The notes beneath the pieces were generated by a model, which saw only the letters and a program-made list of their open reading frames with translations, had not been told where the DNA came from and searched no databases. From IMG/VR virus record IMGVR_UViG_3300028706_000032, positions 1-26,189 of that record: a DNA stretch of 26,189 nucleotides; one strand, 5' to 3'. The position numbers were made by a program, and so were the translations under genes. Below, piece after piece: positions 126 to 18,000 of this stretch. Origin of the DNA: a virus. Position 1 is the stretch's first letter, and each line of letters opens with the position of its first letter.

Positions 126-518
126 ATGAGTCAAGATTACGAATTATTTGAGGGTAAATCACTATCATCATTATTCAAAGATATTTATGATAATTCCAAA
201 CATAATAAAACACAACTTGAAATGTTAGTAAAAGAAGTTGCTTCATTTATCAAAGATGGGGATATGGCTATTCAGTTAATCCCTATGATAAAAGAGTATT
301 TGGAAATAAATGTAAAGAATGATGAACAACTTGTCAAACTGGCAACCGTTGTTCAACGATTAATTGCTGCCGAAAACAAAGGTGGTTCGGAGTCAGAGTT
401 TGGTTTATCAGAGAAAGAAAAAGAACAATTACTTAAAAGTATAGACGATGTAGTTGTGGATATACAAAAAAAATCAGATGATATCACAGAAGATATACAA
501 ACAGTTAAGGAAAATTAA
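126..518 (+). CDS. Small helical phage protein of unknown function, upstream of the spike gene
   Basis: The product has 130 residues, mostly Lys/Glu/Asp-rich with heptad-like hydrophobic spacing, so it is probably largely alpha-helical. It has no signal peptide or membrane segment. The central part (about residues 25-85) contains the pattern PMIKEYLEINVKNDEQLVKL followed by VVQRLIAAE. I believe similar short proteins lie next to baseplate genes in marine T4-like phages, but I cannot name a family. The C-terminal third is acidic and coiled-coil-like. The stop codon overlaps the start of the spike gene (TAATG at 516-520), so the two are probably translationally coupled, which suggests a role in hub/spike assembly or as a minor tail part. 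The start at 126 is preceded only by a weak purine stretch (GGGAAAATAAA). Confidence 0.75.
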   Translation: MSQDYELFEGKSLSSLFKDIYDNSKHNKTQLEMLVKEVASFIKDGDMAIQLIPMIKEYLEINVKNDEQLVKLATVVQRLIAAENKGGSESEFGLSEKEKEQLLKSIDDVVVDIQKKSDDITEDIQTVKEN

Positions 519-1711
519 TGGCATATAAGATAAATCGCGATGATGAATATATAGTTCATCCTAACGGTCCTGCCACTATGAAAGAAGTTGGAAACTTGTA
601 CAGTAAGATAATGCAAGCAACTCCAGAGTTTTATGAATTAGAACCAGCAGAAGTAGTGGGAATTAATTTAGATGAAAAGGATTTACCATTAAATGACGAT
701 GATAAACCAGATTGGACTCAATATGGATGGGCAACAGTTAAATTAAATATTAGTAGAAAAAATGATAGAGAAACTATAGTTGCTAGACCATTAGATTCGA
801 ATATTAAAGAATATCCCCTACCCGGAGAAACTGTAATAGTGGCACGGTATATTGGACAATGGTATTATACACAAAAAGTAAATTTATTTAATTCTATTAA
901 TTTTAATTCTGCACCAAATATTGGTAATGTAGAAGGAAAGTTAAATCCCGCTTTGGAAAATAGATTAATACATCATTTTAATCCTAATTCTGGAATTAGA
1001 CAACTTTTGTCGAATGAGGGAGATATAACATTTAATGGTAGGTTTGGACAATCTATTAGATTTGGAAGCAATATAACAGAAATAGAAGGTCAAGATGAAG
1101 ATACTGGAAAAGAAAATTCACCAAATATTTTAATAAGGGCGGGACAAGGAGTAGAAGAAACTGAACCAGGCAAACCAGTAGTCGAAGATATAAATAAAGA
1201 TGGTTCTTCTCTGTGGATTACAACGGATCAAGTAGTACCAATAAAATTTGCAGCAAAAAGTAAAGTAAGACACTATATCGAACCTTCTGCCAAAAAATTA
1301 GAGGGAAAACAAATAATTTTGAATTCTGATAGAATAGTTTTTAATTCTAAAGAAAAGGCTATGTATTTATCTTCAAATCATAGTGTGGATATTTCAGCAA
1401 ATAGAGGAATAATTTTAGAAGTTCCAGATGACGGTGGTGTAAAATTGGGAACATTCACGGCTACTCAACCGGCACTTGGTGGTGACCAAACAATGAAACT
1501 AATTTCTCTTATTATCGATGCCGTATCAGAATTTGCAGGATCATTAACATCGGCTCTCGGTGGACCAGGAAGCCCAATTACACCGACTTCTTTAATAGCT
1601 GTTAATGTACCAGCATCACTATTAAAAAGTACATTATTATCAATAAAGAAAAGATTAGATGAACCAAAGAGTAAAACCGTATACATCGGACAAATAAGAG
1701 GACCTAAATAG
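518..1711 (+). CDS. Baseplate central spike protein, gp5-like OB-fold, without lysozyme domain
   Basis: The 397-residue protein looks like the central tail spike of contractile phages. Residues about 40-115 have the alternating pattern of an OB-fold (EVVGINL, WATVKLNI, YPLPGETVIVARYIGQWYY), matching the N-terminal domain of T4 gp5 and related spikes. Residues about 165-205 (GDITFNGRFGQSIRFGSN, then NILIRAGQG) and 260-310 (QIILNSDRIVFNS, SSNHSVDISANRGI) have the short beta repeats expected of a trimeric spike. T4 gp5 (575 aa) carries a lysozyme domain between these parts; here I see no such domain or E-D-T catalytic pattern. The C-terminus (GGDQTMKLISLIIDAV onward) is helical and may join it to the hub or tip. 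The gene begins inside the previous stop and is directly followed by the next ATG. Function is assigned from family resemblance; confidence is high for spike, lower for subtype. Confidence 0.8.
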   Translation: MAYKINRDDEYIVHPNGPATMKEVGNLYSKIMQATPEFYELEPAEVVGINLDEKDLPLNDDDKPDWTQYGWATVKLNISRKNDRETIVARPLDSNIKEYPLPGETVIVARYIGQWYYTQKVNLFNSINFNSAPNIGNVEGKLNPALENRLIHHFNPNSGIRQLLSNEGDITFNGRFGQSIRFGSNITEIEGQDEDTGKENSPNILIRAGQGVEETEPGKPVVEDINKDGSSLWITTDQVVPIKFAAKSKVRHYIEPSAKKLEGKQIILNSDRIVFNSKEKAMYLSSNHSVDISANRGIILEVPDDGGVKLGTFTATQPALGGDQTMKLISLIIDAVSEFAGSLTSALGGPGSPITPTSLIAVNVPASLLKSTLLSIKKRLDEPKSKTVYIGQIRGPK

Positions 1712-3163
1712 ATGCCTACAAGATGTGAATATTTAGCAAAAGAAAAAAGATTATTGGGTCCCGGTGATCCTATAATTATTGGATGTGAACTTATTGAGAA
1801 TAGTGGTATTTTTGGTAATGTAGAAAAGTGGTCGCCGCGATTTTGTGATGCAAATGGAGTGGCTGGACCATATGGTGCAACAGTAATATGGCCTGAAACA
1901 GGAAACGATACTTATATATTTTCAGCAGGAGAATCAGTACCAGCAGGAACGGAAATTCATCAAGGACAAGTATATGATAATGGTGAATGGCATGATGCAC
2001 CATATACGGTAACGGGTGACGGTGCAATTGCAGGACCAGAAACTGCAGACATTGATGCGTTGCTAGATTCTTTATCAAAAGATGGAACTGGAGATGGTGA
2101 TGAAGATGAAGATGGTGGAGAAGATGGTGGTGGGACTGGAGATGGTAGTGGAAGTGGAGATGGTGATGCAACTGCACAACCAACAGTAGGAACACCACCA
2201 GAACAACTCGATGAACTTAATCCATTTTGTACTCCACTTACCGGTCTGGCGTTACCATCTGATGAAGAAAAAGATTGGTTGTCAGAGTTCGCTGATTTTC
2301 AACTTCCTGAATTAAAACTTTTTGATCTGAGCGGATTTACAGCATTTATAACAAAACAATTATCTAAAGTAAATGCCATTCTGGGGAAAGTTCAAACAGA
2401 AGTAGATTCGGTTATAGATAAGGTAAAATTAGATCCAGAAAAACTTTGTACGCAGCCAGTAAAGGATGCCATTCGATTTTTACTTGATACTATAAAGTTG
2501 ATAATGAAAATGGTAAAAGTTTTTCAAAAAATGATGAAAATAATAAAAATTATTCAAAGGGCACTGGCAATTGCGAAGAAGATTTTAAAATGGGCTACAT
2601 TTCCAGTTCCAGTAGTACCTATTGTAGAAAAACTAATAGATATGTTACAGATTATGACTCTTGTAGATATGTGTGTAGCTACACTGATACGGTCAATGGC
2701 AAAATTTACAATGATATTACCAATTTTACAATCACAATTGATGGCAATTTTAGCCGCATGTGCAGCCGAACAGGGACAACAGCCACCTACGGACAAGGCA
2801 TCGTGTGAAGCCGCAGGTGGAACATGGATAGATCCAGCAGAAATAAAAGAACTTCAAACATTATACGATCAAATGTTAAGTGAGGCGACCACATTAGATA
2901 ATATGGCTAGCGGTACAGGAAGTGGTTCAGGAAGCGGTACAGGAGAAGATGATGGAGAATTGTTTGGATTTTGTAGTATTACAGAACTTACCAATAGAAA
3001 CGATTGTGAGGCCGCTGGTGGAGATTGGACATCAGTAGATGCAGATACAGATTTTTCTAAGTTAGATACATCAGCACTTTCTAATGAATTAGCAAAACAA
3101 GTTGATGAATTAAATAGTTGTTTTTCAGATCCAGAATTACAAGAGTATTTGGATTCAATATAA
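1712..3163 (+). CDS. Cysteine-containing tail-associated protein with hydrophobic/basic helical region, unknown function
   Basis: I do not recognise this 483-residue protein as a named family. Three parts are visible. The N-terminal region (about 1-115) is probably globular and contains Cys5, Cys25 and Cys44. An acidic Gly/Asp linker (about 120-155) is built from DG and EDG repeats. A long helical region (about 205-355) has dense hydrophobic and lysine residues (IRFLLDTIKLIMKMVKVF, ILKWATFPVPVVPIV) and could interact with a membrane or form a buried bundle. The C-terminal part carries two copies of a C-E-A-A-G-G-x-W motif (about residues 365-375 and 435-445) around a Gly/Ser linker. There are 11 cysteines in all, many for a phage tail protein. 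The ATG directly abuts the spike stop (TAGATG) and an AGAGGA site lies upstream, so it is probably made with the spike. A hub, tip or membrane-contact role is inference. Confidence 0.7.
   Translation: MPTRCEYLAKEKRLLGPGDPIIIGCELIENSGIFGNVEKWSPRFCDANGVAGPYGATVIWPETGNDTYIFSAGESVPAGTEIHQGQVYDNGEWHDAPYTVTGDGAIAGPETADIDALLDSLSKDGTGDGDEDEDGGEDGGGTGDGSGSGDGDATAQPTVGTPPEQLDELNPFCTPLTGLALPSDEEKDWLSEFADFQLPELKLFDLSGFTAFITKQLSKVNAILGKVQTEVDSVIDKVKLDPEKLCTQPVKDAIRFLLDTIKLIMKMVKVFQKMMKIIKIIQRALAIAKKILKWATFPVPVVPIVEKLIDMLQIMTLVDMCVATLIRSMAKFTMILPILQSQLMAILAACAAEQGQQPPTDKASCEAAGGTWIDPAEIKELQTLYDQMLSEATTLDNMASGTGSGSGSGTGEDDGELFGFCSITELTNRNDCEAAGGDWTSVDADTDFSKLDTSALSNELAKQVDELNSCFSDPELQEYLDSI
2077..2175 (+). 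repeat. GAT-GGN codon-repeat linker (DG-rich low complexity)
   Basis: The DNA is a purine-rich run of GATGGT/GATGAA/GGAAGT-type codons encoding Asp, Gly, Glu and Ser inside the 483-aa gene. It separates the N-terminal globular part from the helical part. Such simple repeats are prone to slippage, so the linker length may vary between relatives. A second, shorter Gly/Ser/Thr linker occurs at about 2911-2955. Confidence 0.7.
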
Positions 3164-3183: not shown

Positions 3184-3705
3184 ATGAAGAAACAAGAGTT
3201 AATAAAAATAATTGAACTTGTAGTTCGTAAAGAAGTGAAGAAACAGGTAAATGAGATATTTATTAAAGAGAATGAATCACCATCACTTATCGAATTAGTT
3301 TCAGACCCCTTAACCGAAAAAGAGTTCAAAGAACCTATTAGAAAACAGTATAAAACTGAACCTAAAAAGGAAGTAAACTATACAACAAACAAAGCCCTTA
3401 ATAAGGTTTTGAACGAAACCGCCGGTGGTGTTCCACAAGGAGATGGTAGTGGATATGAAACTATGGGTGGTGGAGTTTTTGATAGTAGTAAAGTGAATGA
3501 ATTACTCGCGAGAGAAACTGGTTTAGGAAATCCTGAATCCGTAAAGGAAAAGAAACGAGAAATAGCAGCGGTAGATTCTATAAAGAGAGCTGGTGTTTCG
3601 GTTGACCAAGTTCCTGACCATGTAACAAATGCATTAACGAGAGATTATTCAGCAGTTATGAAAGCAATAGACCAGAAAAAGAGTGGGACAAATTTTCGTC
3701 CATAA
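3184..3705 (+). CDS. Small conserved-type phage protein, unknown function
   Basis: The product has 173 residues. The first 30 residues are strongly basic and helical (KKQELIKIIELVVRKEVKKQ). A middle region reads NKALNKVLNETAGGVPQGDG followed by a Gly-rich YETMGGGVFD. The C-terminal part contains GVSVDQVPDHVTNALTRDYS. These blocks resemble, from memory, a protein found next to baseplate genes in marine T4-like phages, but no function is known to me. No signal peptide or membrane helix is seen. The start at 3184 is well supported by AGGAGATAACAAA just upstream, after a 20-base gap. It lies between the spike group and the fibre gene, so it may be a chaperone, connector or minor tail component; that is inference. 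Confidence 0.75.
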   Translation: MKKQELIKIIELVVRKEVKKQVNEIFIKENESPSLIELVSDPLTEKEFKEPIRKQYKTEPKKEVNYTTNKALNKVLNETAGGVPQGDGSGYETMGGGVFDSSKVNELLARETGLGNPESVKEKKREIAAVDSIKRAGVSVDQVPDHVTNALTRDYSAVMKAIDQKKSGTNFRP

Positions 3706-3715
3706 GAGGTGAGAA

Positions 3716-5188
3716 ATGGCATTAGATAAGAATTTTTTAAAGTATAAACTTGAAAAGATTGAAAATGATAAAATTATAAAAGATTTATCGGCAGAAGATA
3801 AACAACAATCAAGAAAAAAGAATGCAGAGGCAGCACAACAACATGCAGATGCGATTCATTCTTATTTAACTGGAATGGATCCCATAAGAATCTTTAGTAA
3901 TAAATCTTTTTTAGAACCCGATTCAATGCCAGGAAATTTGACATTAAATGATAAAGGTCAGTTGAATCTAACTCAAGTTGAACCACCAGCAGCTAAACTA
4001 ACTCTTTTAATGAGAATGTTACGAAAACATAAAAGTTTTGGTGGAGCAAATAAAGACAAAGGAAAGAAATTAAAGATTCTTAAAAAAGTTTTTGATAGTT
4101 TAAATATTATTTTTAAATTTAATAAACTTTCTATGGATAAGGATTTTGAAGTCAAAGGTAGTGTAGGTGTTGGAAATAATATTATTATAGGTGGTAATAA
4201 TATTGTAAAGAAAAATTCAAGTGTGATTGGAAATCATACAATTGGTGGTGGATTAACTGTAAATGGAAAGTCATCCACATTTCGTGGATCAGTAAATTTG
4301 AAATCCGCGGGAACAAGGACACCCACCAATTTAATAGTAGACGGAAACATACAGGGAACTAAAGATTTAACTTTAGGTCAAAATTTAAAAATTGAAAAAA
4401 ATGGTGAAATTGGTGGAAATTTAATTGTTAATAAAAATGAAATTATTAAAGGTAATGTTCAAGTTAATAAAAATCAACGAATTAAAGAAACTTTACGTGT
4501 TGATAAAAAATTAACGGTTGGTAAAACTACTGATGTAAAAGGAAATCTTATAACCAGAAAAACTTCTAATACATTTGGATTTCATAATGTTGGACTTGGA
4601 TTAAATGTAATGGGACTAACAATATTAGGTGGTGGTGTATTAATAGCACCGATACCCATTCCACCAATACCAGGATTACCAAGACCAGCGAAAACATCTG
4701 CAGATTTAAGAGTTAAGGGTGATATAATTGGAGAACAAGATTTACAAATTACGGATAATTCTGTAGTTGAGGGCAATTCGACAGTTGAAGGAAATTTGGA
4801 AGTTCACGATGAAACTGTATTACGAGGTCAAGTATCAGTACAAGATGATTTAGAAGTACTGGGAGATACAACTTTTGAAGGAGATTCAAAATTTGAAGGA
4901 AATGTGTCTATAAAGGAAAGTGTAGCGGATGTTAATGGATACACATATTTACCAAATGGTATTATATTACAATGGGGAACTGCAACTTCGAACTCAGATG
5001 ATATACAAAGTTTTGAGTTTCCATTGGTATTTCCAAACGCGTGTTTTAATGTTGTCACTCAAAGGAGAAATGGAGATGTAGTAGATGTACTTCCCGTCAC
5101 AAGTATTTCAACTACTAACTTTCAGATTAATAGAAACGCATCCATTGATGGTAGCCATTCTTTTTATTGGCAGGCATTAGGAAATTAG
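3716..5188 (+). CDS. Baseplate/tail fibre with beta repeats and gp53-like C-terminal domain
   Basis: The 490-residue protein has the layout of a trimeric fibre. Residues about 1-50 are charged and helical and likely form an attachment or coiled-coil segment. Two blocks (about 143-285 and 330-400) consist of short repeats with Val/Ile and Gly-Asn or Gly-Asp at regular spacing (VKGNLI, VEGNLEV, VLGDTTFEG), typical of beta-structured phage fibres. A hydrophobic Gly/Pro-rich stretch (about 297-325, LGGGVLIAPIPIPPIPGLP) interrupts them. The C-terminal 85 residues contain GYTYLPNGIILQWG and FPLVFPNACFNVV, the signature of the gp53-like C-terminal domain found at the tip of many phage tail fibres. 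A GAGGTGAGAA site precedes the ATG. It would be a host-contact or spike-associated fibre; the receptor cannot be told from sequence. Confidence 0.82.
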   Translation: MALDKNFLKYKLEKIENDKIIKDLSAEDKQQSRKKNAEAAQQHADAIHSYLTGMDPIRIFSNKSFLEPDSMPGNLTLNDKGQLNLTQVEPPAAKLTLLMRMLRKHKSFGGANKDKGKKLKILKKVFDSLNIIFKFNKLSMDKDFEVKGSVGVGNNIIIGGNNIVKKNSSVIGNHTIGGGLTVNGKSSTFRGSVNLKSAGTRTPTNLIVDGNIQGTKDLTLGQNLKIEKNGEIGGNLIVNKNEIIKGNVQVNKNQRIKETLRVDKKLTVGKTTDVKGNLITRKTSNTFGFHNVGLGLNVMGLTILGGGVLIAPIPIPPIPGLPRPAKTSADLRVKGDIIGEQDLQITDNSVVEGNSTVEGNLEVHDETVLRGQVSVQDDLEVLGDTTFEGDSKFEGNVSIKESVADVNGYTYLPNGIILQWGTATSNSDDIQSFEFPLVFPNACFNVVTQRRNGDVVDVLPVTSISTTNFQINRNASIDGSHSFYWQALGN

Positions 5189-5199
5189 AGGAGAATAAA

Positions 5200-5634
5200 A
5201 TGGGAGCAAGAGAAAAAGATTTAAATCCAGATGTATTTATTGGATTGAAACTTCCTATGGGGTATTCTGATACTGGATATTTTAAACAAACTAAAACTAC
5301 TATTGAGCAGGCCAAGTGGAATATTATGAATTTATTACGGACAATTCCAGGTGAAAGATTAGGCCAACCACTATATGGTTCAACACTTCATCATTTACTT
5401 TTTGAACCTATGACAGATGAGTTAGACGATAGGGTAAAGGATGAGATTAAAACTTCCATTGATACATGGTTGCCATATATAACTATTAAAAAAATTAATG
5501 TTGGACATCCAGAAGGAAATCCAAATCAAATTAATGTATCTATACAATTTGGGTTATCGTTTCAACCCGATGCGACGGAACAAGTTTCTATTGATTTTGA
5601 ACAATTTGAATCAGCAGTACAATCTGGTGGATAA
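5200..5634 (+). CDS. Baseplate wedge subunit, gp25-like (GPW/gp25 family)
   Basis: Starting at the ATG at 5200 this encodes 144 residues, close to the usual length of gp25 (132 aa in T4). The family hallmark is present: a helix leading into NIMNLLRTIPGERLGQPLYG followed by STLHHLLFEPM, then an alpha/beta core ending in VSIQFGLSF. Family members (T4 gp25, P2 gpW) sit in the inner ring of the baseplate and join the wedge to the sheath; despite the name 'lysozyme' used in some databases, they are structural. The frame stays open upstream to a TTG at 5167, but that overlaps the fibre gene; the ATG at 5200 has AGAGGAGAATAAA just before it and is preferred. It is followed by the gp6-like gene, the usual order. 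Confidence 0.93.
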   Translation: MGAREKDLNPDVFIGLKLPMGYSDTGYFKQTKTTIEQAKWNIMNLLRTIPGERLGQPLYGSTLHHLLFEPMTDELDDRVKDEIKTSIDTWLPYITIKKINVGHPEGNPNQINVSIQFGLSFQPDATEQVSIDFEQFESAVQSGG

Positions 5635-5668: not shown

Positions 5669-7603
5669 ATGGCTACTACCGCAGTAAGTAAAGAAGTAAA
5701 ATATTTAAATAAGGATTTTGCTTCTTTTAGAAATAGTTTAATGGAGTTTGCAAAGACATACTTTCCAAATACATATAACGATTTTAATGAATCAGATCCA
5801 GGTATGATGTTCATTGAAATGGCATCATATGTAGGTGATGTTTTATCATATTATATTGATGAACAATTTAAAGAAAGTATGTTATCTTTTGCAGAAGAAA
5901 AGAAAACCATATATGAAATATCACAAGGATATGGATACAGACCAAGACAGGCTTCAGCTGCATCTGTAATACTTGATGTGTTCCAAACAGTCCCATCCGA
6001 TCCCAATAATATATCAGAAGGTAAAAGACAACCAAATGAAGATTATTGTCTTACAATTCCTGCAGGAATGCAAGCAATATCAACTAATGGAACAACTTTT
6101 AGAACAACCGATGATATAACATTTAGAGATTCTGGTTCATTTAGTCCACGATCTCAAGATATTTTTGAAGTAGATAATGACAGTAATATTACAAAATGGT
6201 TATTGAAAAAGCAAGTAAAGGCAGTTAGTGGTAATGTTATTACGGAACAAATAACCTTTGGAGTGGCAGAAAAATATAAAAGAGTGTCACTTGGAAATAG
6301 TCCTGTATTAGAAATAATTTCGGTAACAGATAGTGATGGAAATAAATGGTATGAAGTTCCATTTTTAGCACAAGATACGGTATATGCAGATTCGGAAAAT
6401 ACATCTTTAAATTCACCAGATTTGGTAGAGGGTAGAAATTTTGCACCCTTTTTATTAAAATTAGTAAAGACATCTAAACGATTTAAAACATATATAAGAC
6501 CAGACGGAAAAACTGAAATGAGATTCGGATCGGGAGTTTCTTCTGGAAATGATGAAGAAATAATTCCAAATCCATCCAATGTTGGTTCTTCATTACCAGG
6601 AACACCAAGTTTTCTTGATACATCATTTGATCCAGCTAATTTTTTAAATACGGAAACTTATGGTCAGGTTCCTGTAGAAACAACTCTTACGGTTAAATAT
6701 TCTTATGGTGGTGGAAGTGATGACAATACATCATCCAATACTATAGTTAATGTTGGATCCTTTGATGCACAGACTGATAGTTCAGTATCTTTAGATACCA
6801 CAATAGAATCAAAGACTAAAAATTCTGTAATTGTATCCAATCCAGAACCAGCTTCAGGGGGAAGTGGAATGGAAACTCTTGAAGAGATTAAGGTAAATGC
6901 TCTTGCATATTTTCAAGCACAAAGTAGAGCAGTAACAAAGGATGATTATATAACTCGTGTATATTCGTTACCACCTAAATATGGTAATGTTGCAAAAGTT
7001 TATATTATACAAGATGAACAAGTAGCGGCAACAGGACAAAATGAAGCCGATCCTACATTTCAATCTAATCCCTTGGCATTAAATATGTACACTATTGGAT
7101 ATAACCAAGAAAAACATTTAGTAAGATTAAATTCTGCAGTTAAAGAAAATATAAAAACATATTTAAGTCAATATAGAATGATGACAGATGCGGTTCAGCT
7201 TAAAGACTCCTGGATATGTAATATTGGTCTTGATTTTGCAATTTTTACTAAAAAGGGATTTAATAAGAACGAAGTATTATTAAAATGCGTTACAGCTGTA
7301 AAATTATATTTTAACATAGATAAGTGGCAAATAAATCAACCGATAATTTTGGCTGATGTAGTTGCGGAAATATTGAATGTTGAAGGAGTGGCAACTATAG
7401 TTAAACCTAATGATGGTAGAGATGACTTAGTTATTTTCTCTAATAAATGGGGAACTCAATCTGGAAATACATATTCTAATAATATTTATGATTTAGCAAG
7501 TGCAACTTTTAATGGAGTGATTTATCCACCTGTTGATCCTGCAATATTTGAAATTAAATACCCTGATAGTGATATTCGTGGTAGGGTGATGGGAGATATC
7601 TAA
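5669..7603 (+). CDS. Baseplate wedge subunit, gp6/gpJ-like
   Basis: The 644-residue protein matches the length of T4 gp6 (660 aa). The N-terminus has the conserved block NKDFASFRNSLMEFAKTYFP, then NESDPGMMFIEMASYVGDVL and YYIDEQFKE, the recognisable start of the gp6/baseplate J family. The C-terminal half contains the J-like pattern SRAVTKDDYITRVYSLP and ending blocks LADVVAEILNVEGVATI. T4 gp6 dimers form the iris-like ring that ties six wedges and changes shape at contraction. The start at 5669 has a TTGGAGAAGATTA site. Its stop overlaps the next ATG (TAATG at 7601-7605), with GGGAG as a ribosome site for the downstream gene, so they are probably coupled. Assignment is confident. Confidence 0.95.
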   Translation: MATTAVSKEVKYLNKDFASFRNSLMEFAKTYFPNTYNDFNESDPGMMFIEMASYVGDVLSYYIDEQFKESMLSFAEEKKTIYEISQGYGYRPRQASAASVILDVFQTVPSDPNNISEGKRQPNEDYCLTIPAGMQAISTNGTTFRTTDDITFRDSGSFSPRSQDIFEVDNDSNITKWLLKKQVKAVSGNVITEQITFGVAEKYKRVSLGNSPVLEIISVTDSDGNKWYEVPFLAQDTVYADSENTSLNSPDLVEGRNFAPFLLKLVKTSKRFKTYIRPDGKTEMRFGSGVSSGNDEEIIPNPSNVGSSLPGTPSFLDTSFDPANFLNTETYGQVPVETTLTVKYSYGGGSDDNTSSNTIVNVGSFDAQTDSSVSLDTTIESKTKNSVIVSNPEPASGGSGMETLEEIKVNALAYFQAQSRAVTKDDYITRVYSLPPKYGNVAKVYIIQDEQVAATGQNEADPTFQSNPLALNMYTIGYNQEKHLVRLNSAVKENIKTYLSQYRMMTDAVQLKDSWICNIGLDFAIFTKKGFNKNEVLLKCVTAVKLYFNIDKWQINQPIILADVVAEILNVEGVATIVKPNDGRDDLVIFSNKWGTQSGNTYSNNIYDLASATFNGVIYPPVDPAIFEIKYPDSDIRGRVMGDI

Positions 7604-8727: not shown

Positions 8728-9036
8728 ATGCCATATTCAAAAGACGAGTTAAAAAATAACGAATATTATCAAGTACTTACAAGGGAAGATGAGGCTAAAT
8801 ATTCAGAGATGGTTCAGGGTAGAATCCAATCTGGAGATATATCAGATGGAACTTTAAGAGATCCAGTTTCTGGAAATATTCTTTTATTTGAACGAATAAT
8901 TCCGGGACAAGGAACTGATGGAACAAGCTATGTGAACGGTGATTTTCATACTATTGAGTATGAAGATGGATATTTTGATTATGAAGAAAATGAAGAACTT
9001 AATAAAATATTAGATAGAGAATTTACGGAATTTTAA
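8728..9036 (+). CDS. Small acidic protein between wedge genes, unknown
   Basis: This 102-residue, acidic and Tyr-rich protein is not recognised. It contains the patterns NNEYYQVLTREDEAKYSEMV, GTLRDPVSGNILLFERI and a very acidic end (EYEDGYFDYEENEELNKIL). No membrane helix or cysteine is present. ACGAGATAAAAA precedes the ATG at a reasonable distance, and the stop overlaps the start of the giant gene (TAATG at 9034-9038). The conserved position between wedge subunits suggests a small adaptor, comparable in place but not visibly in sequence to small wedge proteins such as T4 gp53; that comparison is speculation. Confidence 0.7.
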   Translation: MPYSKDELKNNEYYQVLTREDEAKYSEMVQGRIQSGDISDGTLRDPVSGNILLFERIIPGQGTDGTSYVNGDFHTIEYEDGYFDYEENEELNKILDREFTEF

Positions 9037-12000
9037 TGCCTAAAAAACAACTAACAATAGATCCAAAAACAGGAAAATTATCGAGAATAAAAGATACAGA
9101 ATTGCCTCTTGTGCAATTAGCTAATTCTTTAAATGAAGGTGATCCTGTTGCTCCATTTGGTTCTCTTACAACAGACATAATTGAAGTTTGTCTTTATGAC
9201 ACAGATGATAATTATTTATCAAGTGCGACAATAAGAATCCCATTACCAGAGAGCTTAGATATAGGTCAATATGTGAGGAGTATGGGATATGAACGTGGTA
9301 CATATAAAATAGTATTTAATTTTTTAAGAGAAATAGGTGGCAGTAGTATACCTAAATTTGTCAAAAAAGATAAAACTATTTGGGATGGAGAATTTACATT
9401 AGATACAGATGGTAAGCTTTACGCAGGTTCGGTGAGTAAACCTGTAATAGATCCAGATACCCAAGAGAAAATAGAACTTACCGCAGAAAATGACAAATTT
9501 TGGTTACAAGAAATATCACCATCTCGAACTGAAATAAGACTGAGACCAAATCCAGCAATAAATGATGCTGATGCGAATGAACGATTTAGATTATTAGGAT
9601 ATACGTGTTTATGTCAAGCAGATGTAAATGGTGAAGCCCCACTAACATTTGATGATACTGGAAAATCTGCTACAGTAAATTGGGTTCTTAATGGTGGACA
9701 AGAAGTATCATTAAATGAATTAATGAAAGGTGGGACTCTTATTATACGAGATGCCTTTGTTATCGATTATGAAGAATCTCCCGAAACTATATCAACTTAT
9801 ACTCCAGTAGTAGAAACTATTACCGCGGCAGCATCAGATAATTTGGCAACTAATGGTCATTTTAATTCGGGTAACGGTGTTGTTCAAGAAACCGATAGTA
9901 ATCCAAAAAATGAAGTAGTTGAATTTCCTAATCCAGGTCATAGTAAGTGGTGTTTATTAACTTCCCCAGCTGGGGGAGAAGGTGGAACTAAAGATGTTGA
10001 ATATCAAATGGACTTTGAGGTTATACCCGGTGAAACTTATGTATTGAGTTGTTGGATATATCACGATGAAGATTGGAATGGTAGAACCGATGCACATTTT
10101 TATTCAAGAGCATTTACTGATAATGTAAATGGAATAACAATAAGTGGTGTAGGAACGGTATTAGAAACAAAGGTTGTTGATGGTAAAACTTGGGAGCGTC
10201 AATATAGTCGTATAATTATTCCACCAGAAGGAACAGGAAAATTATCTTGGTACTTAGGTGCCGGTGCAGAAAAACCTGGTACTCCTGTATTGTCTGGGAA
10301 TAGATATTACACCGACATTCAATGTGAACCTGGTTCATCAACTTCGTTACCAACTTCATATATGATGGAAGAAAGACCCGAAGAACTCGAAATCCCTTCT
10401 ACTGGTTTAATTAAATTTATAGACGATAATACGGTATCTGCAACACTCAATGGTGATGAAGAAGGATTAGTTGAGTTAATGCAATCTGGTGACAATAGAG
10501 AAAGTGGTGTTCTTACTATTAAAAATGCTATTGTTACGGATGAAACATTTGATGTAAAAACTGATAGAACTATTGTTGATGGGATACCAACAGATAATTC
10601 TGATGCATCAATTATTAGAGAAAAGGGGAGTGAAACAGAATTTAATAAAAGTCCATTTCATGGTGATGGTCAAACGGATTCAACTGATTTAAATATAACA
10701 TTACAGGCCAATGATACTTATAGATTAATTAAAGTTAATTCAAACGGTAATGAGGAAGAAGTAGGAAGATATGATTTGCCAGTTGATGTTACAGTAGTAG
10801 ATGAAATACCAGTAGAACCTTCAATGGCCCCGGAGATAGTTATAGAAGAGAAGAAACTTCATAAAAGTTCATTTCATGGTGATAACCAATCCGATTCCAA
10901 TGAATTAATTGTTACTATACATAGTAATGACATTTACAGATTATATAGAATAGATTCAGATGGAATAGAAGAATTAATTGGTGAATATGGTATTCCTGAA
11001 GAAGTTAAGGAAATCGATGATTTAGAATTAATTAATCCTGATGGCAGTGAGATCCGAGAAAATAAGAATGAAGGTGAGTGGGGTGCTACAGCAAGTCCGT
11101 ATCATAGTACTACAGATAATAAAATCATATTACAAGTTGATACTAAATATACTTTGTATAGACTTAGACCCAACGGAGAAGAAATTCAAATTGGTACACA
11201 TGATAATTGGAAGGAATCAAAAGAATGGTCTTTAGATTCTCTTGTAGACGGTGATAAATTAAGAATTTTAACAGAGAATACGGGTGGAAAAAACGGTTTC
11301 ATTGGCAAGATATATTATAATAATCAAATATATAAAACTGGAGATCCAAAATCAAAATATCAATCTGATGATGACCAAGAAATTTCTATTACAACTGATG
11401 GTATTTGGGATGCAAGAGCCTTTACTTTAAGGAGAAGAGCCAAATGGTGGAAATTTGGTTTTGGTGACGATATATATGATTGGTTTGATACTACAGCTAT
11501 ATTTGGATCAAATATATTTCTACCAACAAAAACTTATGGAATTCCTGAAAAGGTAAAACAATGGAAAGGTAAAGTACATAAAGATTTAGAGGATTGTAAG
11601 GTAATATGGACTGGTCCAAATTATAGAGAACTTAGATGGGAATGGGAGCCATCCGTTAATGTACATGAAAGAATATGGAAACGACAAGATCCAGCATTAA
11701 ATGTTCGTTCTGTTCATCCGGTAGCTTGGAGTTCTGGTCTGTCAGTACATTCTTGGAGTAGTTCAGGAGCATATGCATTCTGGAAAACGGGTTGGTTAGG
11801 TCATCAAGCAAAATGGGTTAATGGTGAAGGTCACGGTGGTGGTCCTGCTATGAAATTCATAGACCAAAATTCACAATTTCAAAATCCAAATCATCCGGAT
11901 TATAATGGTAAATATTTTGATATAGATGGAAATAGAGTACCAGATCATACTATCAATTATGCATATGGTAATAGATGGGGGTATGGAAGTGCAGATCATC

Positions 12001-15000
12001 CAATTTCATTAGAACATCGTGGCCAGTGGATTGATCAAAGACCACCTTTTAGTTTTGAATCACAAGGAATTAAAATTGGTGATAAACTAAAAATTTCTTG
12101 GTGGCAAAAATCTGATACTGTTGGTAAAGGTGCCAGAGTATATATAAGATATTGGAAAAAAGAAGCACCAATTGATGGAGTATTTTGGGATTCAGCTACT
12201 ACCACCGTTGGAAACACACTAAGATTTATTCCAGTATCAAAAGAGGGTGAATGGGAGAAGGCAGAATATACATTTGAAGTTCAAGAAGATTTTGACCTTT
12301 CAAGAATGGGTTCTTCAATTTATGGAGATAGAAATATCGGGCCCCTATTTCGTATAGACGGGTATTTTGGTCCAGAAGGAATATTGTGGGTAAGTGAACC
12401 AAAAATTACATTAGTTTCAGATGTAGATAATCCAGAAGTAACTAATACAATTACTCTTGATGATTTTGAACCAACTGATAAATTAAAACTCTATACTACC
12501 AACCTTGGTACAGAACCACGTGGTTTTCTTTCAAAAGTAACATATAAAGGTAAAGAATATAGAACAGGTGATCAAGATAAAGAACATTATTATGATGATT
12601 TTGCAGGTTCAACTTTAACTGTAGATTTACCTGGCACTTGGCAAATAACAGATGCAGAAAATAAGAATTGGACAGACCTCGGAGAAGTAACAGATGATAA
12701 AATAGATCCAGAACTTAAAGATTCTAAATGGATTTGGAGTTCGGAAGATACAAATGAAGTAGTATGGCAATGGCTTCCAAATAATAATATTGTTGATGGT
12801 ATATGGAATTATCCCAATCCTGTTACATATGAAGATGCAGTTGGTATAACTGGTTGGAGTGATGGTTTTAATCCTTTTCATTGGGGAGGTGACTCAAGTA
12901 AACAAAGTGAGCTATTCTGGCATAGTGGTTGGGTAGGGCATCATGCAAAATGGGTACGAGATGAAGGTCAATTTGGTACTTGTATTAAATTTGTTGATAT
13001 GAATTCACAATTTGTATCACCAAATCACCAAGATTATGATGGACTTAATGGAACAGGAAATAACTCAGGAGCACAAGCTACATTAGAACATAGAGATATG
13101 TTTGTCTATGCAGATTTACCAAATAAATTAGCATCACAAGGAATACAAGAAGGAAGTTTTATAAAGATTTCTTGGTGGCAAAAAACTAATGTACAAGGTA
13201 AAGGTGCACAAGTTGGATTACGACATTTTAATAAAGATGGTCAAATTTCATGGGGACCAGATAATGAATTTAGAAGAATGATTCCTTGTACATCTGTAGA
13301 TGAATGGGAACAAGTTAATTATACAGGTGTTGTTGATGAAGATTGGGATTTAACTAAAACTGACAAAATTTATGTAAAGGGTCATTTTGGTCCTGAAGGA
13401 ATGTTATGGGTAGAGAACGTAACGATTGAAATAATTTCTGGAATAGCAACAGATCCAGACCAAACTAATATATACACAGTTCATAATTTTAATTCAGATG
13501 ATAAATTAAAACTTTATACTACAAATTTAGGAACATTACCAAATGGATTTATATCTAAAATAAGTTATCGTGGTACGGAATATAAGACAGGGGATCCTGG
13601 TGTAGATTTTTATACAGATCCAATAACCGATGAAACGATAACTATTAATTTACCAGGAGTTTGGAAAATACCAGGATCTAATTGGAAAACACTCGGTAAG
13701 TCAGAAGAAGTCAATCCAGACTTGGTTGTAGATCCTACTTTATCTAATGCCGTATGGGTTGGAAATACAGATGAAGTAGAGGGACAACAACTTTGGGAAT
13801 GGAATCCACTTGGTGATATTGGTAACTACATATGGAATTATCCAAATCCAACTTTACGAACTGATGCAGTTTGGCCAGAGAATTGGTCTAATGGATTTCA
13901 AAATTTTAATTTTAATGATGAAGGTCAGAGATTTTGGCACTCGGGCTGGGTAGGACACCACGCTAAATTTGTTCCTGAAGAGGGACGTGATGGTGAAACG
14001 GCTATGAAATTTATAGACCAAAACTCTGGATTTGATTCACCGAACCATCAATATTATGTAGGAGATTATAAAACAGGCAATTCGTCTGATGCTGACCAAA
14101 CTTTGAAACATCGAGAAATGATGCTTTCACAAAAGTTACCACATACTATGGCTGCACAAGGAGTAGAAGTTGGTGATCAACTTACAATTTCATGGAGACA
14201 AAAATCTGATACGGTTGGTAAAGGTGCAAGAGTTGGTATTCGTCATTATAACACCACAGTAAGTGATGTGGATCCATTAGAAAATACACTTACTGGTACA
14301 CTTCAAATGCGGAGCAATGATGATACAATTTACCAATTGGTAAGTTATAATAATTCTGAATTAATTGGTAAGGCCTTTCCTAATATGACTGTAGCTGTTT
14401 CTAATCCATCACGAGGTATATCTGGTACTTTGACTTTACAAGAAATTAACTTATCCACTTCAGTGTTAACTTTTACCAGTGGGATTCAGGGATTTCAACG
14501 TGGAGATACACTTGACTTTACTTTAGATACTTCTCAACATGATGTACCAGTTGGTCCGTTTGGAGTTGAAACAACTAACGCATATTCTAATATAGAAAAT
14601 ACTCAAAAGGATCGAGAATGGTTAAGATATATTCCTACTACTACGGGAGATTGGCAAGATGTTAGTTATTCAGTTATTGTTGATGGAGATTTTGATTTAA
14701 CTCAACCATCTTGGTTGGTAGTTTATGGTCATAAAGGACCAGAAGGAATGTTATGGGTAGAGAATGTAGAAATTAAAATAACTGTTGATAATCAACAAAT
14801 ATCTGTTGTTCCTGTATTTGGAGATTTTGTAGCAGAAATTGATGGTTGGATTGATAGAAATACTTTAACAGTTAAGGGTGGATATAATAGTGTTGCTGAA
14901 AGTTTAGGACACATTTCCGATAATAGTGATAATATTCGGTCATATAGTACATTTGATGAATTTTCTGTAGAATATACTTCGTCTGTTTATAGTGCAGAAC

Positions 15001-18000
15001 CTATACTTGGATCGTTAAGAGGAGAGATTGCTAATGTTAATGATGATACTATTACTCTTGTTAATTCTTTTAATGAAATCGCTACGGAGGCTGGACATGA
15101 TTTAGAAAATTATCCACTTGAAGCATTACAGTCAGATGATGGACTTCTCGCTTTCAATAAATGGTTCATTCAATATCCAACTGATAGTACTGAAAATTTA
15201 GGTAAATTATTAAAATTGGGTCCAAATAAATATGATGTAATAACTAATTTTAAAATTGATACTCAAACATACCCTGAATATCCGCACTCACTTGTGTATA
15301 AATTATATGAACCATTACCAGATGATATAGTTAATCATGATTTTGTTACCGTAGTTAGGGAAATGATTCCACCGATAGAAGAAACTTGTACTTTAATTCC
15401 ATTTGTAGATGAATGGGTTAGTGATGTAGTTTTGAGAACTCCAGAATTTCAAAGTGTTACGAGTCCGATAGGAACTGGTCAAACAGAATTCAAGAATTAT
15501 ACTGAACTGGCAACTTCAAATTCTGATATTAAGAATAAATTAGAAGATGAAGTAATAAGTGGCAGTTTAAGTGCTGATATCAATGTAGACTTTAATTTAT
15601 TTGAGAATTTTATACATTTTAGTTCAGCAGAACAACGAGTTAAAAACTTTAAATATAAGTTAGATTTAATAGAACAGTATACAGATAGAAGTGCTTCATT
15701 GGCCGGTGCCGGAAGCGGATCTACTGGTACAATAGGAGTAGTTGCTGCACCGGGCAGTGGTTCATATATAACAATATCTGGATCACAATCACTTAATCCA
15801 CCATTTACTCCAGTAAGTGGTTCATTGACACAAATTCAATCTTGGGAAACGAAACGGAGATTGATGATTAATTCATTTGATAAATTTGAAAAGTATATGT
15901 TTAATCAAAGTTCTTCGTATTCGAGTCAATCTATTGGATTATTTCACGATAATGCTTGGCCCAAGAGAGGTGGTTCTGGAAGTTATGCATATCCATATAT
16001 TCTTACAAGAACTTCACAATCAATATCAACGACTTGGTATGATAACCAAATAATTTCTGCTTCTGCATATGATAGGGCAAATAAAAATAGATTAAAAACT
16101 CACTTACCTACATTCGTCCAAGATGATTCACAGAATGATGTCTTTCTAACATTTGTAGATATGATTGGACATCATTTTGATGATATATGGGTATTCATTA
16201 AATCTATGACAGATGTTTACGATAGACGTGATAAATTATCAGAAGGGGTTGCAAAAGATTTATTAAAACCAGTAGCACAATCTTTTGGTTGGGAAGTACA
16301 AGATGGAAAAGATTTAATATCTATGCAAAGATATATTCTTGGAATGGAATCAACTGGATCTGAAGAGCCGTGGGTTTATTCAGGAACTTCGGATAGAGAT
16401 ATATCGAGAGAAATTTGGAGTCGTATTATAAATAATATGCCTTATTTCTTAAAGACAAAAGGAACTGCACGGGCAATTAAAGGTTTGATAAGTTGTTATG
16501 GTATTCCTTCAACTATATTACGAGTTATGGAATATGGGGGACCTAAATTATCAGGTCAAACTCCAGAATTTCTTACAACAAGAAAATTTACCAAGTCATT
16601 AAATTTCTTTGGGGCGAGCAATAATACATATGTTAACACTAATACTTGGTTACCAGTAGTTTCTGGAAGTGGATCAACAAGTAGATTACCAGATACCGTA
16701 GAATTTAGATTCAAAGCTGCTACAGGATCAAATCAAGTATTGGTAAGACGAGGTGATGATTGGGCAATTAGATTATTAGATAATGGTTCAATTGATAACT
16801 ATGGTCGTGTATCTTTTGTATTGAGTGGAAGTGAAGGATACATAGAAACAAGTTCGTCTGCTTTCCCCGTTTTTGATGGTGAATTTTATTCCGTAATGTT
16901 AACAAGAGCATCAGCTTCTGGTAAGTTTTTATCTGATGATACACCAAGTCAAGATGTAGTTTATAGTTTATATACTAAAAAGTATGACGCTGGTAGAAGT
17001 AAGATATTTTTAGAATCTACTGCGACATTGGCAGTAAGTGGTTCTGCGGGGGCAACATCAGAATCATATAATGCATCATGGACGGGAAGTGGTGGACAAA
17101 TTACAATAGGTGGTCCTCAAGAGAATACATATTTCGGAGAATCATTTAGTGGTTCTATGATGGAATTTAGACTTTGGACAACTCCACTTACAGAATCAGC
17201 ATTTGACAATCATGTGGCCTCCCCAATGGCATTTGATGGTAATACACCATCTGCATCATATATGGATATGGTTACTCGATATTCTTTTGACGATGACAAA
17301 GATTTAAGTGTAGCTGCCAATCAATGGTTTCAAGATGCAAGTGCAGACCAATCATTTACTTCATCCGCCACACCTACAAACTATGCCGGTGGCACATCAG
17401 ACTATCATTTTTCAGCCGTAGTAGATGAAACAAAGATGAAAATTCCTAATTTGGGACCAAGTATGAAGTCATCTAATAAATTGAGAATTGAAAATGATAC
17501 TTTATTAGATTTGGCACAATCTGCTAATCCTATATTAAAATTTAAAGAAAGCATAACAATTCCAGCCTATGATAACGCACCAGTAGATTCTAATAAACTT
17601 GGTATTTTCTTCTCACCTACGGCTGTTATTGATGAAGATATAATATCTTCACTACCAAATATTGATTTTGACCAATATATTGGAGATCCACGAGACCAAT
17701 ATAAAGAACAATATACAGGATTGACAACTGCAAGAAATTTATATTGGCAAAAATATTCAGGACCAAATAACTTTTGGGATTATTTAAGATTGTTAAAATA
17801 TTATGATAGTTCATTATATAGACAGATTAGAGATTTAATTCCTGCACGGGCAAATGCAACTGTTGGTATTCTTATTGAACCTACTATACTTGAAAGAGAT
17901 AAAGTAATTATAGGAAAAAAACCTACTTTTGAAACCGCACATTTTAAGAGTGATATAGATTTATATTATATTTCTGAAAGTGCAAGGTACACACCATTGG

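Follow-up and report, generated by a model that had tools for sequence, protein, structure and literature searches.

T4 gp8 assists the folding of gp6 (PMC3004832), and in the tail of Agrobacterium phage Milano many disulfides are present (PMC10811340). How a T4-type tail tip crosses the last envelope layers after passage of the spike is still an open question. Here we describe gene X, which directly follows a spike-position gene in a T4-type baseplate cluster and is best read as coding for a previously undescribed, lineage-specific, spike-linked accessory protein of marine phage.

A conserved gene directly after the spike

The whole stretch of DNA analysed (the window; 26,189 nucleotides) is a 26-kb virus record, and across the X region a shorter contig matches it with few or no differences. 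The genes that matter here are the following.

518..1711, + strand: spike-position gene, 397 aa, putative gp5-like central spike (position and sequence character)
1712..3163, + strand: gene X, 483 aa (relatives in 58 viral contigs, constant synteny)
3184..3705, + strand: g173, small conserved gene after the X slot (synteny)
3716..5188, + strand: fiber gene (Pfam Gp53-like_C, E 1.7e-16)
5200..5634, + strand: gp25-like baseplate wedge protein (Pfam GPW_gp25, E 1.1e-12); start adopted from relatives, the ORF list beginning it at 5167
5669..7603, + strand: gp6-like baseplate wedge protein (PHROG 219, E 7.8e-21)

As the preliminary description had it, the X reading frame directly follows the spike gene, with no base between its start and the stop codon of the 397-aa ORF. 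X is a genuine conserved gene and not a chance ORF, since 49 distinct relatives, at about 40–91% identity, occur in constant synteny; the order g130-spike-X-g173-fiber-gp25-gp6 is found in every X locus that extends far enough to reveal it. Of 32 loci, 12 have the spike stop and the X start overlapping by one base, and in 26 the distance lies between -1 and +5 bases, suggesting that the two genes are translationally coupled. The spike-position gene, upstream of the gp25 and gp6 genes, has relatives in at least 80 contigs; its product has no sequence match in Pfam, PHROG or PDB, and the label 'spike' comes only from its position, sequence character and family resemblance. A protein-level search (tblastn) of 50,697 phage records returned no match to X in cultured phages, a species-level collection of bacterial and archaeal genomes held no relative, and nothing in PHROGs, Pfam or PDB matched across most of its length. 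Pfam hits to TrAA12, Serglycin and MMS22L, each in one or two members of the family, look like low-complexity or helical noise.

Several features of the surrounding genes were seen along the way. The 130-aa protein encoded before the spike (window 126-518) is the most conserved of the module, about 90% identical across the clade as against 45% for the next gene. In two close relatives (L003:56-1744 and L010:718-2391) the spike is longer at its C-terminus by about 155 residues. An in-frame TGA cuts the spike, gp25 and gp6 genes of L073, L074, L085 and L131, all of which are whole once TGA is read; the residues aligned to these positions are mostly Trp (29), followed by Tyr (7), and from these alignments the four look like TGA=Trp recoded phages. 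In L108, an ORF between g173 and gp25 (4194-4721) resembles a GIY-YIG homing endonuclease, as recognised by eye. After the gp6 cluster, window 9036-19079 encodes a protein of 3347 residues, to which relatives of about 1300 aa align at residues 2040-2957 only, leaving about 2000 extra N-terminal residues here.

X diverges together with the spike and the fiber

Compared with the genes of the window, their counterparts have a median identity of 43% (X), 45% (spike) and 49% (fiber), as against 65–90% for gp25, g173, gp6 and g130, which makes X, spike and fiber the fastest-evolving genes of the module. Pairwise distances of X correlated with those of the fiber (rho 0.74) and the spike (0.62) and not with those of g173 (0.00), and after gp25 was partialled out the values were 0.57 for the fiber and 0.56 for the spike; such pairwise distances are non-independent, and no p-value is attached to them.

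The presence of the fiber gene follows that of X. In 63 X loci (a redundant set) the gap between g173 and gp25 is 612–1498 bp and is filled by the fiber gene, while in 34 of 36 loci without X it is at most 13 bp. The fiber gene is confined to X-type loci, and therefore X and fiber mark one clade; they may also work together, the co-occurrence being confounded by their belonging to that one clade. Conservation of the fiber covers its N-terminal ~150 residues, the beta-solenoid and the Gp53-like tip being optional. We also observed that this tip is exchangeable or missing and that fiber length ranges over about 200–490 aa.

The likely translational coupling, together with fast evolution alongside spike and fiber, could also be expected of an assembly factor or chaperone that serves the spike or fiber and is absent from the finished tail, and T4 gp8 itself, as cited above, sets a precedent for such help. 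However, X is large and multi-domain, its cysteine modules resemble those found in baseplate proteins of the virion (see below), and we consider a chaperone quite unlikely.

Predicted architecture of the X protein

An alignment of 41 distinct sequences and two AlphaFold2 models divide X into the following parts.

1712..2065, + strand: N-terminal beta domain, residues 1-118 (AlphaFold2)
2066..2203, + strand: acidic DG/GS-rich linker, residues 119-164, non-conserved (alignment; mostly missing in shorter relatives)
2303..2455, + strand: conserved pre-hairpin region, residues 198-248 (helix 209-237; invariant G208, F209, T210 and C246)
2456..2599, + strand: predicted hairpin helix A, residues 249-296, cationic (models and alignment)
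2600..2614, + strand: proline-rich turn, residues 297-301 (alignment; helix broken here in both models)
2615..2770, + strand: predicted hairpin helix B, residues 302-353, hydrophobic (conserved E306, D319, R/K331 and C350)
2804..2827, + strand: first CEAAGGxW motif, CEAAGGTW, residues 365-372 (motif search)
2948..3040, + strand: C-x10-CEAAGGxW module, residues 413-443 (resembles T4 gp8 138-162 and gp10 domain 3)
3005..3028, + strand: second CEAAGGxW motif, CEAAGGDW, residues 432-439 (motif search)

Much of what had been read from the letters alone holds. All 11 cysteines were counted (5, 25, 45, 173, 246, 321, 350, 365, 421, 432 and 470), of which C246, C350, C365, C421, C432 and C470 are essentially invariant in the alignment, and both claimed C-E-A-A-G-G-x-W motifs are there. 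The DNA pattern behind CEAAGGxW occurs twice in the window as against never in 100 shuffles, and four related records (43–106 kb) have exactly two copies apiece; among the fetched loci the motif pair is limited to X. The dense hydrophobic, lysine-rich stretch, put at about 110 residues, corresponds to a helical stretch of ~105 residues, with 62% ILVMFAW and 15% K/R over residues 249-350. As for the acidic DG linker, it is present in X at ~119-164 but is not a conserved feature, being variable, shortened in most relatives and in some nearly missing.

In the full-length AlphaFold2 model the N-terminal beta domain reaches a pLDDT of about 82–91 for most of the span 10-110 but drops to 60 at residues 61-70, while helices 209-237, 249-296 and 302-353 are predicted at low confidence (mean pLDDT 54). 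When residues 165-483 were modelled separately from 49 sequences, the same helices came out at a mean pLDDT of 48, so that confidence was not raised. Modelling X alone, a check proposed at the outset, thus yielded helices that recur in both models, at low confidence and with no confident buried bundle. From the models, residues 249-353 likely form one long antiparallel helix-turn-helix hairpin around the proline-rich turn. In a hairpin register, conserved lysines can come to lie opposite the invariant E306 and D319, and a charge-register test gave its best sum at 595, a register that is not unique, as rivals score nearly equally. Foldseek searches of PDB and BFVD with the whole X fold gave nothing at E<=0.001. 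VIA matches (Smc and MacA hairpins, cNMP-binding rolls) stayed below Z 8 and may be mere common arrangements, and the cupin/cNMP-roll-like matches of the N-terminal domain are weak (Z<=6.4). No hub fold of the gp27 or Mu gp44 type is among the Foldseek or VIA matches listed, which derive from the low-confidence X models.

The well-predicted beta domain, the fast evolution of X and its co-occurrence with the fiber would also fit a receptor-binding or decoration protein, in which the N-terminal domain binds the host surface and the hairpin is a mere stalk. Unlike a typical receptor-binding tip, though, this domain does not outpace the helical part in evolution (mean distance 0.405 for each), and no carbohydrate-binding family was matched in Pfam, which leaves such a role very unlikely.

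A cysteine module of the gp8/gp10 type

Residues 413-443 match Pfam Phage-Gp8 (PF09215) with E 2.7e-4 and 20.5 bits, under the curated cut-off of 25. Gp10_D3 (PF22670) is matched by 18 of 41 relatives at E<=0.01 (best E 2.9e-6), with scores of 15.5 bits for the window protein and 16.7 bits for L054 against a cut-off of 27; the L054 match spans positions 65-99 of the 122 in the profile. When the X-family profile was compared with T4 gp8 (PDB 1N7Z), gp8 residues 138-162, 'DTGMCSIASLTDKDECLKLGGKWTP', aligned with the X-family consensus 'siGfCsitehldkkdCeaagGtWtd', 25 residues that include both cysteines, the GG pair and the Trp (E 0.2–0.3 PDB-wide). X thus has a cysteine module of the gp8/gp10 type, C-x(9-10)-C-x3-GG-x-W (C421/C432, GGDW), within a T4-type baseplate cluster. 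The match is restricted to residues 413-443: X is not a member of the T4 gp8 family as a whole protein, nor does it match gp10 domain 3 as a whole domain.

The spacing of these cysteines is steady. In 54 of 60 cases a cysteine sits 11 residues upstream of the second motif; before the first motif the distance is 11–15 residues in the relatives (C350 here). This spacing suggests that each module is a small closed loop.

Taken with the strict adjacency to the spike gene, the frequent one-base overlap and the divergence correlated with that of spike and fiber, the gp8/gp10 element bears out the tie of X to the spike and baseplate that its position had suggested.

The slot after the spike in distant relatives

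Relatives of the spike at 41% identity or above carry X in the slot that follows, whereas those at about 29–40% identity have other content there. The largest group, slot family B (39 ORFs), has an invariant cysteine pair around a hydrophobic helical region, and many of its members have near-transmembrane stretches; the remainder comprises families of 12 and 9 smaller proteins, plus singletons. The slot is empty in L088 and L089, and likewise in twelve contigs (L158-L169) whose spike is related to that of Mel-JY01; g173 is present also in relatives with an empty slot. Because the slot can be empty, X is no universal baseplate part.

In Microcystis phage Mel-JY01 the slot holds an endolysin-like protein (PHROG 181, E 9.9e-33), which we take to be of the GH19 type from its COG3179 chitinase annotation, and in L154 a CHAP-domain protein (E 9.4e-11) is encoded two genes after the spike. 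The slot protein of Flavobacterium phage immuto falls in family B by alignment. Complete genomes of both Mel-JY01 and immuto carry the T4-type capsid protein Gp23, and on this gene content the spike-X module belongs to distant T4-type phages. The putative contractile character of the X-bearing records is read from their gp25 and gp6 genes; the sheath family PF04984 was not found in four related records, all of them fragmentary, a result that does not bear on complete genomes. No literature was found on Mel-JY01, and immuto appears in passing mentions.

Homology of X to family B was considered and rejected: hhalign gave a probability of 2.5%, and full and hairpin-only comparisons were no better than reversed or shuffled controls. 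One single-sequence match between X and family B (L111, E 1.8e-4) was not confirmed. No relation was seen between X and slot family C, and a protein like those of family C is encoded in Mel-JY01 far from the spike, a few genes upstream of the large terminase (PP395634.1 14458-15009).

Thus the slot next to the spike swaps hydrolases, helical proteins or nothing between lineages, and because its content is exchanged in this way it is a good place to seek host-specific penetration parts.

Membrane propensity

Membrane-propensity scoring had been proposed for X, and its outcome was divided: a cationic amphipathic helix A was found, and a transmembrane-like segment, on an approximate insertion scale, was not. 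Helix A (249-296) has a net charge of +10 and a hydrophobic moment of 0.71, and at residues 279, 283, 286, 289, 290 and 293 at least 92% of relatives have K/R. Kyte-Doolittle maxima of X are high (1.75–2.2), yet on a biological scale of approximate coefficients its best windows have a median insertion energy of about +3.7 kcal/mol, which makes membrane-spanning helices unlikely.

These properties bear on the idea that X is a spike-borne penetration protein, which the spike would bring into the envelope and whose cationic amphipathic hairpin would bind or disturb the host membrane and help to open a path for the DNA. The six conserved K/R positions of helix A, the peptidoglycan hydrolases in or beside the same slot in two distant lineages (Mel-JY01 and L154), the cysteine-bracketed, often near-transmembrane hydrophobic regions of the 39 family B ORFs, and a rate of evolution as high as that of host-facing genes are all consistent with it. 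However, conserved acidic residues lie within the hydrophobic helix, X lacks a transmembrane-like segment on the approximate scale, its homology to family B is not demonstrable, and its C-terminal module is a baseplate-type element. Nor does tape-measure likeness help: 35 of 41 relatives matched PHROG 305 (best E 2.9e-7), but reversed segments gave E 0.0013–0.015 as against 0.0001–0.0019 for real ones, and tape-measure homology was therefore rejected. We regard a membrane role, the main rival of the reading that we prefer (see below), as possible though doubtful. A broader version, in which the slot of distant T4-type phages is a cassette for swapping envelope-breaching modules, either wall hydrolases or membrane-acting, non-enzymatic, cysteine-bracketed hydrophobic hairpins such as that of X, we think unlikely. 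If true, X would be a spike-launched membrane-perturbing device; to our knowledge, none of this kind has been described for contractile phages.

A proposed spike-associated adaptor and its comparison with known systems

The reading that we prefer, with a probability of about one in two, is that X serves the central baseplate as a lineage-specific accessory protein, expressed together with the spike and mounted on it or beside it, probably as an elongated adaptor. We infer that X would be part of the injection tail or virion, and that it would oligomerise, form disulfides and act as an adaptor. In such an arrangement, the predicted layout of N-terminal beta domain, flexible acidic linker, antiparallel hairpin and C-terminal cysteine modules would allow the hairpins of several X copies to pack into an elongated bundle, hydrophobic sides in and lysine stripe out. 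The cysteine modules, possibly disulfide-closed outside the cell, would dock onto baseplate partners, and this docking would hold the spike/fiber assembly together. Against the adaptor, model confidence in the hairpin helices is low, so that the bundle is not established, and the gp8/gp10 similarity spans only 25–35 residues, with Pfam scores under the curated cut-offs; the rival charge registers, the single clade shared by X and fiber, and the slots left empty in relatives weigh on the same side.

Among the closest known systems, the immuto slot protein (QQO92073, annotated as 'DNA repair ATPase', RecN-like) has the same slot, a hydrophobic helical region, a proline turn and a bracketing cysteine pair, but its N- and C-terminal domains differ and homology is not demonstrable. 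The 'putative chitinase' of Mel-JY01 (WWT39505) occupies the same slot as X but is an enzyme, as is the CHAP protein of L154, encoded by the second gene after the spike, whereas X has no recognisable catalytic domain. The likeness to tape-measure proteins (PHROG 305) is one of composition, with no ancestry demonstrated. With T4 gp8, X has only about 25–31 residues in common, the gene position differs and no similarity to the rest of gp8 was detected; with domain 3 of T4 gp10 it shares the same short cysteine module, about 35 of the 122 profile positions, none of the other gp10 domains being found in X. What recurs is the small cysteine module of T4 gp8 and gp10, here within a baseplate-cluster protein that is otherwise unrelated to them.
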